This document shows, in pieces, positions 3,469-13,154 of a DNA stretch of 21,383 nt. Source of the DNA: a virus. The notes beneath the pieces are model-generated. The model was given only the letters and a program-made list of their open reading frames with translations. It searched no databases and was not told the DNA's origin. The position numbers were made by a program, and so were the translations under genes. Within the stretch, counting starts at the first letter, position 1; each line of letters starts with the position of its first letter. The stretch is from the IMG/VR virus record IMGVR_UViG_3300047548_001346, positions 1-21,383 of that record; one strand, 5' to 3'.

Positions 3469-3948
3469 ATGATCATAAGATCAAAAAGAAAACCAAAAAA
3501 AGTAAAAGTCGATTTAATAAAAGAAGCGTCTCATTGGTTTGCAGAAAAACTTCTTACAAAGAGATTAAATCAAAAAATAATTTTACATTTAAAATTTACA
3601 GATAATTTAGATAAAGATACAGGGTGTATAGCGTTCTGTTCATGGTTAGATAAAAATCACAATCCTCGTAAATTTGAATTTGAAATAGATAGTAATTTAT
3701 GTGAACAAGATATGTTAAGAGCTGTTGCTCATGAAATGGTACACTTAAAACAATATGCTACGGGACAAATAAAAGATTTTGCAAGAACAGATAAAATAAA
3801 ATGGGAGGGCAAAATCATGGCAGCAAAAAATGATAGCGATGCAGAAGCATATTGGTTTAGTCCATGGGAAGTAGAAGCATATGGAAAAGAGATTGGTCTG
3901 TACGCTCTATTTAAATCATATAAAAAGGAAAAACTAAAGCGAAAGTAA
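3469..3948 (+). CDS. SprT-like zinc metallopeptidase
   Basis: 159 aa and the only plus-strand gene in the window. HEMVH (88-92) is the HExxH zinc site, in the context 'LRAVAHEMVHLKQYATG' typical of SprT/Spartan-like families. The segment 'SPWEVEAYGKE' (131-141) offers glutamates that could serve as third ligand, as seen in phage members. There is no C-terminal zinc ribbon, and the first 15 residues are very basic, so it may bind DNA. Cellular Spartan cleaves DNA-protein crosslinks; a phage role is not established. A very strong AGGGAGG precedes the start, but it lies in the masking stem described at 3422-3467. The gene is convergent with the nucleotidyltransferase and overlaps it by 15 bases at the 3' ends, unusual in this genome. 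Confidence 0.85.
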   Translation: MIIRSKRKPKKVKVDLIKEASHWFAEKLLTKRLNQKIILHLKFTDNLDKDTGCIAFCSWLDKNHNPRKFEFEIDSNLCEQDMLRAVAHEMVHLKQYATGQIKDFARTDKIKWEGKIMAAKNDSDAEAYWFSPWEVEAYGKEIGLYALFKSYKKEKLKRK

Positions 3949-4653
3949 TTTATCCTGCTTCTTCTTTTGATAATTATTTATTTTATCCAAATAACCTCTA
4001 TTTCTAAGCTCTTTGAAAACCAAATTTTCTAATGAAAATTCCCCACCCTTTTGAATACCTGATGATCTCATATCTTTAATTTTTGATTTCAAATTATCAA
4101 ATAAATCAACTGAAACATTGCTCTTAATCATATGATCTATCATATGCATATATGATAGAACTTTTTGTTTTAGATGTTTGTCGTTCTTAAAATCAAAAGT
4201 TCCATGCACAGGTTTTTGAATCCATTTATCATTTTTTAATGAATAAACACCTTGACCTTCTGGAAACTTTGCTGATACATCTTGAGCGTATGGTTCTAGT
4301 GGATATGTAAACACTTTAATATCATGTGTCATCGTCCACATTGTTTTTTTATCTTGTAGGTAGTCGTCTATTAATTTACGATCTTTACCTAATTTGTTTC
4401 TATCTATTAATAGATGAACATCAATATCTGATTTTTTTGTATAGTTGAAGTTTGCATTTCCACCAACCATAACAATGTCTTTTACAAGGTTTTTTGGTAT
4501 ATTAGCGTATTCTCTCCAAGAATCAATAAATTTCAATAGAGATGATTTCACTTGTGGTTTTAGTTTATCATTAACCCAAAGATCAGGGTTTAATGTATCA
4601 TGATACTCAAGTGAAATTTTCATTTCTGTTAAAAAAGATTTAAAATTCTTCAT
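3934..4653 (-). CDS. Pol beta-superfamily nucleotidyltransferase with capsid-targeting-like N-terminus
   Basis: 239 aa from the ATG at 4653, chosen because AAGGAG lies 7 bases upstream; an in-frame ATG at 4671 lies inside the promoter hairpin. The nucleotidyltransferase core is 'MVGGNANFNYTKKSDIDVHLLID' (about residues 62-84): GG64-65, then S75-D-I-D78, with 'HDIKVF' (D111) as likely third acidic residue. This is the minimal MNT/Pol beta catalytic set, so the enzyme may be active on a nucleic acid or protein. The N-terminus MKNFKSFLTE closely resembles the capsid targeting sequence of T4 internal proteins (MKTYQEFIAE), including the (L/I)-x-E prohead protease site. Together with the late promoter just upstream, this suggests packaging in the capsid and injection into the host (inference). 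Substrate unknown. Confidence 0.8.
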   Translation of the reverse strand: MKNFKSFLTEMKISLEYHDTLNPDLWVNDKLKPQVKSSLLKFIDSWREYANIPKNLVKDIVMVGGNANFNYTKKSDIDVHLLIDRNKLGKDRKLIDDYLQDKKTMWTMTHDIKVFTYPLEPYAQDVSAKFPEGQGVYSLKNDKWIQKPVHGTFDFKNDKHLKQKVLSYMHMIDHMIKSNVSVDLFDNLKSKIKDMRSSGIQKGGEFSLENLVFKELRNRGYLDKINNYQKKKQDKLLSL

Positions 4654-4660
4654 TTTGTTC

Positions 4661-4687
4661 TCCTTGTACATTATTTATATACAAGGA
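4661..4687 (-). promoter_or_regulatory. Late-type promoter in the loop of an SD-masking hairpin (nucleotidyltransferase gene)
   Basis: On the minus strand TCCTTGTA (4687-4680) and TACAAGGA (4668-4661) form a perfect 8-bp stem. The 11-base loop contains TATAAATA (4679-4672). The downstream arm holds most of the AAGGAG ribosome binding site. Late initiation just past the octamer removes the upstream arm. This is the cleanest example of the arrangement in the window. Confidence 0.7.
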
Positions 4688-4690
4688 TTT

Positions 4691-4852
4691 TCATTCTTCT
4701 TTGTTTACTTTGAGTCCTTGTTTAACTAGCCACTGAATTTGTTGTATGTCCATCTTATCAAGATCAGGCTTTTTTAAAATAGTATTGATTCTTTCAAGAA
4801 CATCAATACACCATGATAGATCAGCATTTTTGATTAAATTTTCTTCAACCAT
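4691..4852 (-). CDS. Small ORF, 53 aa, unknown function
   Basis: Begins MVEENLIKNADLSWCIDVL and ends VKQGLKVNKEE. TAGGAG precedes the ATG by 6 bases. The peptide looks helical, has several lysines and acids, and ends four bases before the inverted repeat that controls the next gene. The middle segment, a leucine-spaced helix followed by 'IQQIQWLVKQG', could be a small interaction domain. It lies just after a terminator, so it needs its own promoter or read-through. No family is recognised. Confidence 0.65.
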   Translation of the reverse strand: MVEENLIKNADLSWCIDVLERINTILKKPDLDKMDIQQIQWLVKQGLKVNKEE

Positions 4853-5594: not shown

Positions 5595-5981
5595 CTATCT
5601 CAAAACTTGCATTTTTAGTTTAGTTTTACCTTTACCAATAAATCCAAGTTGGTGAGCAGCACCTCTTGAAACATCCAACCCGGTCCCACGGATAAATGGA
5701 CCTCTGTCGTTAACCGTAACAATTATGGACTTCCCATTATTAGGGTTTGTCAGCTTAAGTTTAGTCCCAAACGGTAGGGTACGATGTGCGGCAGATAATC
5801 CGTTTGGGTCGAAACGTTGTCCAGAAGCAGTCCTATGACCAGACTGATACCAAGATGTGACAACGGTATTACTATTTATTTCTCTTGAATCCGTAGTTTG
5901 ACATGCTCCAAGAAACAAACAAAAAAATGCAGTGATTTTTTTAATGTCGAAATTCATATTCATAATTAATTGATTCTTCAT
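5595..5981 (-). CDS. rlpA: RlpA-like double-psi beta-barrel lipoprotein
   Basis: 128 aa from 5981. The DPBB domain covers about residues 40-128: 'TSWYQSGHRTASGQRFDP', 'AAHRTLPFGTKLKLTN', 'VNDRGPFIRGTGLDVSRGAAHQLGF' are the RlpA hallmarks (conserved H, DRGPF, D-SRGAA). RlpA enzymes cut glycan strands that lack stem peptides. A signal peptide ends in the lipobox L-G-A-C (C27 from this start), so it is a predicted lipoprotein. No start has a good Shine-Dalgarno; ATGs at 5981, 5963 and 5957 are all possible, and 5957 would give the most compact signal peptide. All overlap the 3' end of the GNAT-like gene, so coupling is likely. The next gene is a secreted wall hydrolase whose product could create the denuded glycan that RlpA uses. 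No SPOR domain is present. Confidence 0.85.
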   Translation of the reverse strand: MKNQLIMNMNFDIKKITAFFCLFLGACQTTDSREINSNTVVTSWYQSGHRTASGQRFDPNGLSAAHRTLPFGTKLKLTNPNNGKSIIVTVNDRGPFIRGTGLDVSRGAAHQLGFIGKGKTKLKMQVLR

Positions 5982-6393
5982 TTTCTGAAAGAATAAAAGC
6001 CCCATTACCCAAATGAAACTTTTTAGCCATTTCAGTTTTAGGGCTTAAAGTAACAAAACGCCTAACCCATGGCTTTACTTGTTTAATTGCTTCAACAGCA
6101 GAAAACACAATATCTCTACCGGCACCCTTTTTATATGACCACACAGTATAAAACACTGCAATACTATTTGGGTCATTAAAATCATTAAAGCTATACTCAT
6201 CAAGTTCTTTAATATTTTTTGGAACTTGATGAGTATAGGCAACACAGATTATAGAAGAAATTTTATCTTCATCAAATAATGCTAAACATTCTCTACCATT
6301 AGAAACTCTAAATTTATAATCTAATTCAGGCCTAACAGTATCATCTTTTAAAAGATGATTATAATCATAATCTAAATTTGTAAGATATTTCAT
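5941..6393 (-). CDS. GNAT-like acetyltransferase fold protein
   Basis: 150 aa. 'FYTVWSYKKGAGRDIVFSAVEAIKQ' (about residues 80-105) has the acetyl-CoA binding G-x-G-R pattern after a central strand, and 'LSPKTEMAKKFHLGNGAFIL' resembles the C-terminal alpha4/beta7 part of GNAT domains. An early strand pair 'CLALFDEDKISSIICVAYT' fits beta2-beta3. Substrate unknown. Its 5' end lies 17 bases downstream of the tRNA with CAU anticodon, and its stop codon lies inside the following rlpA reading frame. The call rests on pattern only. Confidence 0.6.
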   Translation of the reverse strand: MKYLTNLDYDYNHLLKDDTVRPELDYKFRVSNGRECLALFDEDKISSIICVAYTHQVPKNIKELDEYSFNDFNDPNSIAVFYTVWSYKKGAGRDIVFSAVEAIKQVKPWVRRFVTLSPKTEMAKKFHLGNGAFILSENEESINYEYEFRH

Positions 6394-7220: not shown

Positions 7221-7297
7221 TGGTACGGACTGAGGGACTCGAACCCTCAAAACTCAGATTTTAAGTCTGATATGTATACCTATTCCATCAAGTCCGC
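7221..7297 (-). tRNA. tRNA-Leu (UAA) lacking the long variable arm
   Basis: Minus-strand cloverleaf of 77 nt: acceptor GCGGACT/AGTCCGT (first pair G-U), 3-bp D stem ATG/CAT with a Leu-like loop (GGAATAGGTATA), anticodon stem TCAGA/TCTGA with loop CTTAAAA (anticodon UAA), T stem GAGGG/CCCTC with loop TTCGAGT, discriminator A73 and encoded CCA. The variable region is just GTTTT, although bacterial tRNA-Leu is class II with a long variable stem. The last 10 bases of the HNH reading frame (including the stop) overlap its 5' end. Confidence 0.85.
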
Positions 7298-7713
7298 TTC
7301 AGTGATTCAGAAATTTTCTTTTTGTGTTCTGCTGATTTAGGTATTCCTTTATTAGCTTTTCCACCTTTTGACCAACCAGAACTTACGTTATTTTTCAATA
7401 TTTCTTTTGCTTTGTCAATCCCATATTTTTGTACCAAACCTTCCCATGGTGAAACCCATTTTTTGGCTTTTCTAGCATCTTCTACATTTTCTTTTCTTGT
7501 GCCCCAATATAAATGTTTTGGATTTGAACATTTCTCATTATTACATGCATGACATAAATCAACTTTTGATGGCATATCAGTACATAAAAATTGTGCCAAA
7601 ACACCTCTATGAACTGTACTATTTCCACCTCTTTCAATACATTCTTCAGTCAAATCAATATGAATAGTTCTTATTTCTCTAGATTCTTTTATCCAATCAG
7701 ATACTTTAATCAT
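7288..7713 (-). CDS. HNH homing endonuclease with NUMOD3-like C-terminus
   Basis: 141 aa from the ATG at 7713, chosen because AGGAG sits 6 bases upstream; an in-frame extension to 7737 has no such site. 'DLCHACNNEKCSNPKHLYWGT' (about residues 52-72) is an HNH_3-type core with C54, H55, C57, C62, N64 and H67. The C-terminus 'NKGIPKSAEHKKKISESL' is a NUMOD3-type DNA-binding repeat found in phage homing enzymes. The final codons and stop are encoded by the first 10 bases of the tRNA-Leu gene, so tRNA and protein coding sequence overlap. A TATAAATA octamer lies upstream. Free-standing enzymes of this type cut alleles that lack them and spread by recombination. Confidence 0.88.
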   Translation of the reverse strand: MIKVSDWIKESREIRTIHIDLTEECIERGGNSTVHRGVLAQFLCTDMPSKVDLCHACNNEKCSNPKHLYWGTRKENVEDARKAKKWVSPWEGLVQKYGIDKAKEILKNNVSSGWSKGGKANKGIPKSAEHKKKISESLKRT

Positions 7714-7727
7714 GTTATCTCCTGTTA

Positions 7728-7772
7728 GTAGACGCATGATTATTTATAATCAGACTCTGCCTGTTGGTCTAC
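7728..7772 (-). promoter_or_regulatory. Late-type promoter with nested inverted repeats (tRNA-linked HNH gene)
   Basis: TATAAATA on the minus strand at 7748-7741 lies within the 16-base perfect palindrome TGATTATTTATAATCA (7737-7752). Around it GTAGAC (7772-7767, minus) can pair with GTCTAC (7733-7728), ending 4 bases before the CAGGAG ribosome site. The arrangement is similar to the SD-masking modules elsewhere but the stem stops just short of the ribosome site. Confidence 0.5.
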
Positions 7773-9591: not shown

Positions 9592-10500
9592 CTATTTCCA
9601 ACTATCTAGTATTTGTCGCTTTAATTCGGGTTGTAATGGAACATAATCTAACTCATCTGCGTATGTGTCACCATTTTCAAATGCCCACCTGAAAAAGTTC
9701 AATGCGATGTTTTGATCATTTTCATTGGTAGGCTTTCTATGCATTATAATGAATGTTGGTGCAGTAATAGGCCAGGAGTTATTTTGAAATGTTGACTTTC
9801 CTGCTCTTACTACAACATCATTAATAACTATCGTCGTATACTTTAAATTATTCTGCTTTGCATATGCATATTCTACGTATCCGATAGAATTTCTAGCTTG
9901 TGCAACATTACCTGCAACGCCTTCATTACCTCTCGCACCAACACCGACTGGCCACTCCAATGCAGTTCCAGTTCCTACTCTAGTTCTCCATTCTTCAGAT
10001 ACAGAAGAAAGATATTTTGAGAAAATATATGTTGTACCTGAACCATCAGAACGTCTAACCACAGAGATATTTGTATTTGGTAAATTCACATTAGGATTTA
10101 ACTTTCTGATTCTTTCATCATTCCATCTAGTAATTTTACCAAGGTAAATATCAGCTATAACTGGGCCTGTTAGATTTAAATCAGAAACACCGTCTAGATT
10201 ATAAACCAACACGTTACCACCAATAACAGTTGGGAATTGAAATAGGTTATTCCTATTCAAAATTTCTTCTGTTAGGGGCATATCTGAAGCGCCAAACGTT
10301 ACAGTTCTTGCTAGAATTTGTTTAATACCCGCTCCAGATCCAATACTTTGGTAATTGATCTGAATGCCAGTTTGCCTTTTATAAGCATCTGTCCATTTTG
10401 AATAAACTGGAAATGGAAAAGTTGCTCCAGCTCCAGTTATACTTTGTGCGTTTGCATATGTTGCAAATATCATAGAAAAAACAAAAATTATAAATCTCAT
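9592..10500 (-). CDS. pstS: Phosphate ABC transporter substrate-binding protein PstS
   Basis: 302 aa. Signal peptide MRFIIFVFSMIFATYANA, cleavage before QS. The mature protein opens with 'ITGAGATFPFPVYSKW', and later shows 'SIGSGAGIKQI' and 'RSDGSGTTYIFSKYLS', the three phosphate-binding loops of PstS. It would be exported to the periplasm and feed phosphate to the host PstCAB transporter, helping nucleotide and DNA synthesis under phosphate limitation; this is the usual explanation for pstS in marine phages. The start overlaps the nrdB stop (ATGA), so it is tied to nucleotide metabolism genes. No Pho-box-like repeats were found next to it, and as an internal operon gene it is unlikely to have its own PhoB control here. 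Confidence 0.95.
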   Translation of the reverse strand: MRFIIFVFSMIFATYANAQSITGAGATFPFPVYSKWTDAYKRQTGIQINYQSIGSGAGIKQILARTVTFGASDMPLTEEILNRNNLFQFPTVIGGNVLVYNLDGVSDLNLTGPVIADIYLGKITRWNDERIRKLNPNVNLPNTNISVVRRSDGSGTTYIFSKYLSSVSEEWRTRVGTGTALEWPVGVGARGNEGVAGNVAQARNSIGYVEYAYAKQNNLKYTTIVINDVVVRAGKSTFQNNSWPITAPTFIIMHRKPTNENDQNIALNFFRWAFENGDTYADELDYVPLQPELKRQILDSWK

Positions 10501-11794: not shown

Positions 11795-12437
11795 CTGTAT
11801 ACTTCATCTCGTACTCAAACCTATCATCATCGGATAAAATCCATCGAGGTTGATTCTCAACAGACCAATATGTTGTTCCTAGTCTTCTATCAATAACAGT
11901 ATTTCCCCACTTTGTTACAAAAGATGGTTCAAATACTTTTACTCTATTATTAGGTTGAATAGCGTAATTACCATCATCTAACTCAATAACATGTCCGCAT
12001 TTATGTTGACCAGGAATCTGTGAAAAACCAACGTCAATAATATTTGCGTCTGCCTGAAGCCAATCTAATGTGAAAAGATATTTTCCGCTCTTTTCATTCT
12101 TATTTCTATCAAAGTAAACCATCTTCTTTTCTGATAGAAAGTCATATTTATTAACAGAAACATATGGAGAAAATGAATCCCATAATACTAACTGAAATAA
12201 ATCTTCCTGTGGTGTATCTGGTTTTGAACAAAATGCATGAATTGGCATTCTCCACCAGAGTCCACCATCTTCCATGACAAAATGAAATAATGGTGCTCGG
12301 TGTGGCACAGATGCCACACCGATAATAATGCAAGGTAGATAAGTGTCTGTAATTTCAAACTTTTCAGGTCTATTTTGCAAAAAATTTGATCTTACATAAC
12401 ATTCTATTGGTGGAATGTTTGCATTAATAAAACTCAT
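11781..12437 (-). CDS. Conserved phage protein of unknown function, 218 aa
   Basis: I do not recognise a named domain. The protein is rich in aromatic residues and beta-strand-like segments: 'PLFHFVMEDGGLWWRMPIHAFC', 'MVYFDRNKNEKSGKYLFTLDW' and 'HVIELDDGNYAIQPNNRVKVF' are the most distinctive stretches. The many Trp and Asp/Glu residues suggest a compact soluble beta protein. Its start overlaps the HNH stop as ATGA, so the endonuclease gene sits neatly between nrdA and this gene. Residence within the nrd operon suggests early or middle expression. Confidence 0.75.
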   Translation of the reverse strand: MSFINANIPPIECYVRSNFLQNRPEKFEITDTYLPCIIIGVASVPHRAPLFHFVMEDGGLWWRMPIHAFCSKPDTPQEDLFQLVLWDSFSPYVSVNKYDFLSEKKMVYFDRNKNEKSGKYLFTLDWLQADANIIDVGFSQIPGQHKCGHVIELDDGNYAIQPNNRVKVFEPSFVTKWGNTVIDRRLGTTYWSVENQPRWILSDDDRFEYEMKYTDESN

Positions 12438-13120
12438 TTAAATCTACCCTTTTCATCTTTATTCATTTTTAATCTTCCCAATTTCCATCCTTCTGGACAC
12501 TTATCTTTGTAAGTTTCTTTTATATCATTATTATACCATTTTTTATTTTTAGCAGCTTTTTTTGGAACTTTTATCATACCATATGTATTGTTACCTATAA
12601 AAGGTTCCGGATCAATTCCATTTTTATAAAACTTATTATAAAGGTGATATGAAATTCCTGTATATTTTTTTAATTCATCATAACCAATATATAAATTACC
12701 TTTGTATTCAATGGTTTTTAATTTTTTCTTTCTTATATTATCTTTATGTTTTTCACTTTTAGAAACATTTTTACGAGATTTACTCATTTTCATTTTAGAT
12801 TCGACTGTATGTTTCATTCCAGTATGATCTAAAGAATTTTGAATAGCAAATTTTCTTTTAACCCATCCATATGATTTATTATTTCTATTACCCATCATAT
12901 TAGCTGCATAAATTAATTTAGGTTCGTTTGGGTATATTTTAATTAATAACAAATGACATATGTAATGTTCTTCTGGTAACAAATGAACAAGATTATCTTC
13001 GTCATCAGTTCCATTCATACATTTTGGGATGATATGATGACGCTCATAATATGTTTGTTCATTTGTTACTCTATTTTTTGCTTTTTGTATTAAAGTTTCA
13101 TAGATTTTTTTATAATTCAT
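12434..13120 (-). CDS. HNH homing endonuclease inserted next to nrdA
   Basis: 228 aa. 'YERHHIIPKCMNGTDDEDNLVHLLPEEHYICHLL' (partly H28-H29, N43, H52) is a textbook HNH core of the phage free-standing type. Downstream a lysine/serine-rich region (about 104-134) looks like a NUMOD-type DNA-binding linker, and the C-terminal 'YDELKKYTGISYHLYNKFY' a small helix-turn-helix-like segment. Placement between nrdA and downstream nrd-operon genes parallels T4 mobE, which lies between nrdA and nrdB. It has its own TATAAATA octamer, and its ribosome site and start codon lie in an 11-bp hairpin. Base composition is more AT-rich than the neighbouring nrdA, consistent with later insertion. Confidence 0.9.
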   Translation of the reverse strand: MNYKKIYETLIQKAKNRVTNEQTYYERHHIIPKCMNGTDDEDNLVHLLPEEHYICHLLLIKIYPNEPKLIYAANMMGNRNNKSYGWVKRKFAIQNSLDHTGMKHTVESKMKMSKSRKNVSKSEKHKDNIRKKKLKTIEYKGNLYIGYDELKKYTGISYHLYNKFYKNGIDPEPFIGNNTYGMIKVPKKAAKNKKWYNNDIKETYKDKCPEGWKLGRLKMNKDEKGRFK

Positions 13121-13154
13121 AAATACGTACTCCTTGCCGTCATACGTATTTATA
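13119..13154 (-). promoter_or_regulatory. Late-type promoter forming one arm of a start-masking hairpin (nrd-linked HNH)
   Basis: TATAAATA on the minus strand at 13154-13147 overlaps ATAAATACGTA (13153-13143), which pairs perfectly over 11 bases with TACGTATTTAT (13129-13119). The AAGGAG ribosome site is in the 13-base loop and the AUG is at the foot of the stem. Here the promoter itself is the masking arm, so RNA started at the octamer loses most of it. The same logic controls T4 I-TevI. Confidence 0.7.

Follow-up and report, generated by a model that had tools for sequence, protein, structure and literature searches.

A nucleotidyltransferase with a T4-type capsid-targeting tag as probable enzymatic cargo of a phage head

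A virus fragment of 21,383 bases from IMG/VR (in the following the window, by which the whole stretch of DNA analysed is meant) encodes a nucleotidyltransferase that is probably packed together with the phage DNA and delivered with it into the next host cell. We regard it as probable that the protein is an ejected internal head protein of the T4 style, in which the nucleotidyltransferase is a new enzymatic cargo. As read from the sequence, the gene has an N-terminal tag, a late promoter and a masked start, and its product has an enzyme fold with an intact active site (Table 1). Catalytic activity is predicted from the sequence, and delivery into the host by analogy to T4 Alt, to IPI and to tag fusions of foreign proteins. 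Both the internal proteins and the Alt protein of T4 enter the host along with the DNA (PMC9026906).

Table 1. Coordinates, in the window, of the tagged nucleotidyltransferase gene and of the features assigned to it
Feature	Position	Strand	Basis or remark
Tagged nucleotidyltransferase gene	3934..4653	(-)	ORF list and translation; 239 aa plus stop
Capsid-targeting-type tag MKNFKSFLTE	4624..4653	(-)	predicted prohead-protease cut after E10, new N-terminus Met11
Predicted mature enzyme, Pol-beta-type nucleotidyltransferase plus helical C-terminal part	3937..4623	(-)	AlphaFold2 mean pLDDT 93.3
Active-site carboxylates D76, D78 (SDIDVH) and E120	4294..4428	(-)	invariant among 55 aligned relatives
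Shine-Dalgarno site AAGGAG	4660..4665	(-)	sequence; 6 nt ahead of ATG 4653
T4-type late promoter octamer TATAAATA	4672..4679	(-)	exact match
Hairpin hiding the ribosome-binding site	4661..4687	(-)	RNA fold z -2.65

In the list of open reading frames the gene starts with the ATG at 4653 and ends with the stop codon at 3936-3934 of the minus strand. A longer alternative starting with the ATG at 4671 was discarded; this ATG lies within the loop of the hairpin and has no Shine-Dalgarno site. By its gene content the window is from a T4-like phage, because it encodes a gp61-type primase, with top matches to myoviruses of Prochlorococcus and Synechococcus (42%), and also NrdA; head genes are absent from these 21 kb, and a prohead protease of this phage itself was accordingly not seen. 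When the whole window was searched for near-identical DNA in named phages, only short matches to thymidylate synthase were obtained, and therefore there is no close relative among the named phages.

Convergent with the nucleotidyltransferase gene is a plus-strand gene (3469-3948), whose 3' end overlaps that of the nucleotidyltransferase gene by 15 bases and whose product has a zinc-peptidase-like motif (HEMVHLK; SprT-like by eye, no Pfam match). Host-like genes in the window are those for an S-adenosylmethionine decarboxylase (2353-2715; PF02675), for a protein matching the C-terminal model of malonyl-CoA decarboxylase (5941-6393; perhaps a GNAT fold) and for a phosphate-binding protein that is PstS-like by eye (9592-10500).

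The N-terminus of the protein was compared with the capsid targeting sequence of T4, which we take to be MKTYQEFIAE. M1, K2, F7 and E10 are identical, and the exchanges of Y4 for F4 and of I8 for L8 are conservative. For T4 IPIII, amber-suppressor mutagenesis had assigned targeting chiefly to residues 4 and 7, and processing to residues 8 and 10 (PMC9026906); with F4, F7, L8 and E10 the window protein has all four of these determinants, so that the likeness from which the original prediction started holds at the four identical residues and at every position defined by mutation. The strict pattern (aromatic residue at 4, F or Y at 7, L or I at 8, E at 10) is expected 6e-5 times per start, given the amino-acid composition of the cyanophage S-CREM2, and 848 internal methionines yielded a single instance. 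With a broader pattern at the DNA level, eight large relatives yielded 6 matches versus 3 in the reversed control, and a match to the tag pattern is therefore weak by itself; upstream of four of the six the octamer TATAAATA is found. In the AlphaFold2 model the part of lowest confidence is residues 4-10, a short helix of their own.

The late promoter with a masked start, likewise part of the original prediction, was recovered as an exact octamer (4679-4672) enclosed by a hairpin that pairs the Shine-Dalgarno site. The hairpin has an 11-bp stem over the AAGGA of this site and a stability of -13 kcal/mol, equalled by 1 of 200 shuffled sequences. The Shine-Dalgarno site was calculated to be paired to 0.70 in read-through RNA versus 0.02 in the late transcript; in the shuffle test, made on the near-identical locus L003, none of 100 shuffles equalled this. 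RNA made from the late promoter contains only half of the hairpin, by which the ribosome site is predicted to be freed. The arrangement of octamer and hairpin is known for T4 genes such as e and soc. Copies of the octamer are about as frequent in the window as expected by chance (4 found versus 3.5), and all four lie directly 5' of the start of a minus-strand gene; among the relatives the octamer precedes 17 of the 30 with a full tag versus 7 of 41 others with a start of their own. Because conservation of the hairpin over the family is only marginal (Wilcoxon p 0.036), the hairpin is claimed for the window gene and, by eye, for its near relatives L004, L152 and L154, and not for the whole family. 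Octamer and masked start are the sequence evidence for late expression, which characterizes the T4 internal proteins. Control that allows only late expression argues against an early role in the cell that makes the protein, and in favour of one in the cell infected next.

Two of the other octamers in the window (7741-7748 and 13147-13154) are located just upstream of genes that by eye are HNH-type homing-endonuclease-like (7288-7737 and 12434-13120, respectively).

The only Pfam family found in the protein is NTP_transf_2 (PF01909; 23.6 bits, cut-off 21), and the protein belongs to PHROG 36119 (E 4e-76), a family to which no function has been assigned. G64, G65, D76, D78 and E120 are invariant in 55 aligned relatives; E120, located in a beta strand of the model, is the predicted third acid. 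Residues 21-153 adopt a Pol-beta fold, with 2rff (Z 6.8), AadA (6.4), CdnD (6.3) and MNT (5.7) as matches. By sequence and model the protein thus is a member of the Pol-beta nucleotidyltransferase superfamily (GG/GS, DxD, third acid and fold), as had been proposed for it at the outset: PF01909 is above its cut-off, the acids are invariant and the fold matches. Since the Z scores are tied within about 1 unit, the fold is assigned and the substrate is not. Comparison of a profile with solved structures gave only matches at E 0.8, and Foldseek found no match in the PDB at E < 0.001; no specific substrate can therefore be read from the structure. An ADP-ribosyltransferase domain, which would have placed the protein with Alt, was not found, Pfam giving NTP_transf_2 and the model a Pol-beta fold.

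A direct link to virions comes from the Synechococcus phage S-CREM2, in which tblastn detected a homologue that is 48% identical and spans 99% of the length (ORF156; OR473000.1:126012-126725). ORF156 is listed as "hypothetical protein" in the proteome of CsCl-purified S-CREM2 virions, with 6 unique peptides and a coverage of 15.2% (PMC10665884). Its gene is surrounded by those for gp55, primase and nrd proteins. Whereas the window protein has the full tag, ORF156 has the short form MKKLISE, and an octamer is found just upstream of the window gene and not of ORF156. Because a protein with the short tag was detected in virions, not every lineage requires the full one. Packaging, the central claim of the original prediction, is therefore upheld in part: a homologue is present in virions and the tag of the window protein has the T4 determinants, but the virions are those of a relative, and this relative carries the short tag. 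The neighbouring ORF154, a cytidylyltransferase and virion protein, starts with MKNFSSFLTE, and a cytidylyltransferase is also contained in the virion list of S-SZBM1. ORF155 is likewise in the S-CREM2 virion proteome, in which many other enzymes are not (PMC10665884).

For each of the 219 proteins of S-CREM2 we then compared the N-terminus with presence in virions. The full tag is found in 5 of 52 virion proteins versus 1 of 167 undetected ones (p 0.003). When the 24 virion proteins classed as structural by the S-CREM2 authors are left out, the ratio is 5 of 28 non-core virion proteins versus 1 of 167 (p 2e-4). The five are the SAM hydrolase, the APH-like kinase, the cytidylyltransferase, ORF13 and ORF136. 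A looser test, for any [LIVMF]xE near the N-terminus, did not separate virion proteins from the other S-CREM2 proteins (p 0.07). A targeting sequence is not mentioned in the S-CREM2 paper, whose authors point out that abundant proteins not belonging to the virion may outlast CsCl purification (PMC10665884). The Cas9-like nuclease of the S-CREM2 virion (OR473000.1:7704-10313; L242) contains LRFASFMAE, which resembles the tag, at about residues 17-25, ahead of the remainder of the protein.

In S-SCSM1 the virion NMNAT starts with MKSFLQFLKE (virion data from PMC9602691). One of the two tagged proteins of this phage, ORF30 (106 aa), was not detected in virions (PMC9602691); its gene (MK867354.2:44215) is located among virion and terminase genes. 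ORF30 belongs to a small tagged family (about 100 aa; MKxFxxFLxES-x-NISGDFNG) that recurs in viral contigs such as L035, L041 and L046, and proteins of this type are possibly core proteins removed during maturation.

Relatives of the enzyme were found by tblastn in 45 of 50,697 phage records. In a set of 87 relatives, non-redundant at 90%, simple patterns applied to guessed starts assigned a full tag to 30, a short or variant tag to 22 and no recognized tag to 26, while in 9 the enzyme is located behind other sequence. In many relatives position 10 is occupied by a residue other than E (e.g., MKTFKELRLTL). Since so many have a tag that is short, E-less or missing, the full tag is not universal in the family. 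Relatives without the motif had been named in advance as an observation that would speak against the prediction: they make up part of the family, and 30 of the 87 retain the full tag.

In all eight relatives in which another domain clearly precedes the enzyme, an [LV]xE sequence lies within three residues of the start of the conserved domain (background 0.11 per position), an indirect hint of the predicted cleavage; because L161, L163, L164 and L165 are relatives of one another, the eight cases count for closer to five independent ones. Such a site is present in 53 of the 58 relatives in which the domain start can be placed, and several of those in which it cannot be placed have none. Some relatives extend beyond the usual C-terminus, the extension following LSLTE or LSLNE: it is a lysozyme in L189 (PF00959, E 4e-7), endolysin-like in L179 and other sequence in L176 and L178. 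The protein L176:4597-6945 (783 aa) starts with the tag MNPFLTYLTE, followed by a GTNWCTA-type domain and short repeats; then come IKPFIRFLSE, an internal second tag just ahead of the nucleotidyltransferase, and LSLTE behind the enzyme. By its sequence it looks like a capsid-cargo polyprotein. Among eight large records in which relatives occur, six encode a gp21-type prohead protease (PF03420), including the one whose enzyme is 59% identical. In a short contig of a Cyanobium MAG (JAIXOF010000127.1; L230) the tag of a homologue is replaced by an apparent signal peptide.

We propose the following sequence of events. The gene would be transcribed from the late promoter, the hairpin leaving RNA from earlier read-through untranslated. 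The first ten residues would bind to the prohead core, by which the enzyme would be built in. A gp21-type protease would then cut after E10, so that the enzyme would lie loose inside the DNA-filled head, from which it would reach the next cell on ejection of the genome. There it would modify a host target with a nucleotide monophosphate, most probably AMP, within the first minutes of infection. As target we rank a host protein, for example a component of a defence system or a toxin, as the likeliest, although only tentatively; a tRNA or other RNA comes second and is rather unlikely, and a small molecule third and doubtful.

Tag and virion data might be explained differently. The protein could be packaged and yet work within the head or in its assembly and not be directed at the host, which we consider improbable. 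Core proteins seem to be tagged too, namely the family of the undetected S-SCSM1 ORF30, and T4 IPIII influences head assembly (PMC9026906). However, the active site of the nucleotidyltransferase is complete and invariant, the patchy occurrence among T4-like phages better suits an accessory effector than a part of the assembly machinery, and in relatives the enzyme is joined to further enzymes, among them lysozyme and ART/KptA-like domains. Just as improbable, in our estimate, is an ordinary late enzyme of the cytoplasm whose N-terminal helix merely resembles the T4 tag and whose homologue was carried over into the S-CREM2 preparation. The absence of the full tag from many relatives, the small number of ORF156 peptides and the carry-over allowed for by the S-CREM2 authors (PMC10665884) are in favour of such an enzyme. 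On the other side, the tag is associated with presence in the S-CREM2 virion, the fully tagged ORF154 and also ORF155 are found there while many other enzymes are not, and in the fusions a site of the cleavage type is retained ahead of the domain.

More improbable still is a stand-alone MNT-type antitoxin or anti-defence enzyme that silences a HEPN-type toxin in the infected cell, packaging being secondary or absent. The profile match to the MNT antitoxin 8xeh is weak (E 0.8), and the structural similarity to MNT (Z 5.7) is in line with such a function, but AadA, CdnD and FAM46 fit the fold equally well, within about 1 Z, and late promoter and masked start postpone expression past the moment of host defence. 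No Pfam family was detected in either immediate neighbour (3469-3945 and 4694-4852), nor is any gene labelled HEPN next to the relatives in annotated phages. An MNT/HEPN pair was set aside, as no partner gene was found.

If the protein is an ejected internal head protein, it combines features of two kinds of T4 proteins. Like IPI, IPII and IPIII it has an N-terminal tag of ten residues with the four determinants named above, late expression as judged from the sequence, and a body that differs from phage to phage. The T4 internal proteins are, however, small, basic and non-enzymatic, whereas the body of the window protein, for which packaging is predicted, is a nucleotidyltransferase of 229 residues. 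With Alt it would share the property of a head-carried enzyme that acts at once on a host target. Alt loses an N-terminal propeptide of 7 residues, and the S-CREM2 homologue would lose 7; Alt has a different fold, catalyzes ADP-ribosyl and not nucleotidyl transfer, and is not a homologue. MNT antitoxins, AadA and CD-NTases (CdnD) have the fold and the active-site pattern in common with the window protein (Z 5.7 to 6.8, with about 100 residues matched), yet none is a close match, and the helical C-terminal part lies outside the matches.

In viral contigs the same tag is found on many unrelated bodies, among which are a HAD phosphatase and an ART/KptA-like protein; an address that is modular would be expected to occur in this way. 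It is about an even chance, in our view, that the tag is a swappable address marking a broad, unrecognized group of proteins injected by environmental T4-like phages, with some of the cargo in polyproteins. Proposed members are the nucleotidyltransferase, the cytidylyl- and NMN adenylyltransferases, the SAM hydrolase, the APH-like kinase, the HAD phosphatase, the ADP-ribosyltransferase-like protein and perhaps the Cas9-like nuclease. In the same reading L176, L179 and L189 would consist of cargo modules separated by LxE protease sites and cut apart inside the head.

Should this be true, the N-terminus would suffice to predict the phage proteins that are delivered along with the DNA. Enzymes (NMNAT, kinases, SAM hydrolase, Cas9-like nuclease) have been found repeatedly in virion proteomes of cyanophages, whose authors could not tell packaged enzymes from carry-over; a shared head tag defined by mutation would provide both a mechanism and a simple test. 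For the unannotated PHROG 36119 an injected enzyme is now predicted, together with a defined site of maturation, so that packaging and early action on the host can be tested. Among the papers searched there was only a review on the history of T4 and no work that ties the T4 tag to the virion enzymes of cyanophages.

A tagged protein closer to Alt was seen in IMGVR_UViG_3300023174_000064 (L250). It has 387 aa, starts with MKSFIQFLSES, contains an ADP-ribosyltransferase-like LYRGTS...GPGQYWTSSPTYAERY and has a TATAAATA late promoter upstream; from its sequence it is a candidate for an Alt-like tagged protein.
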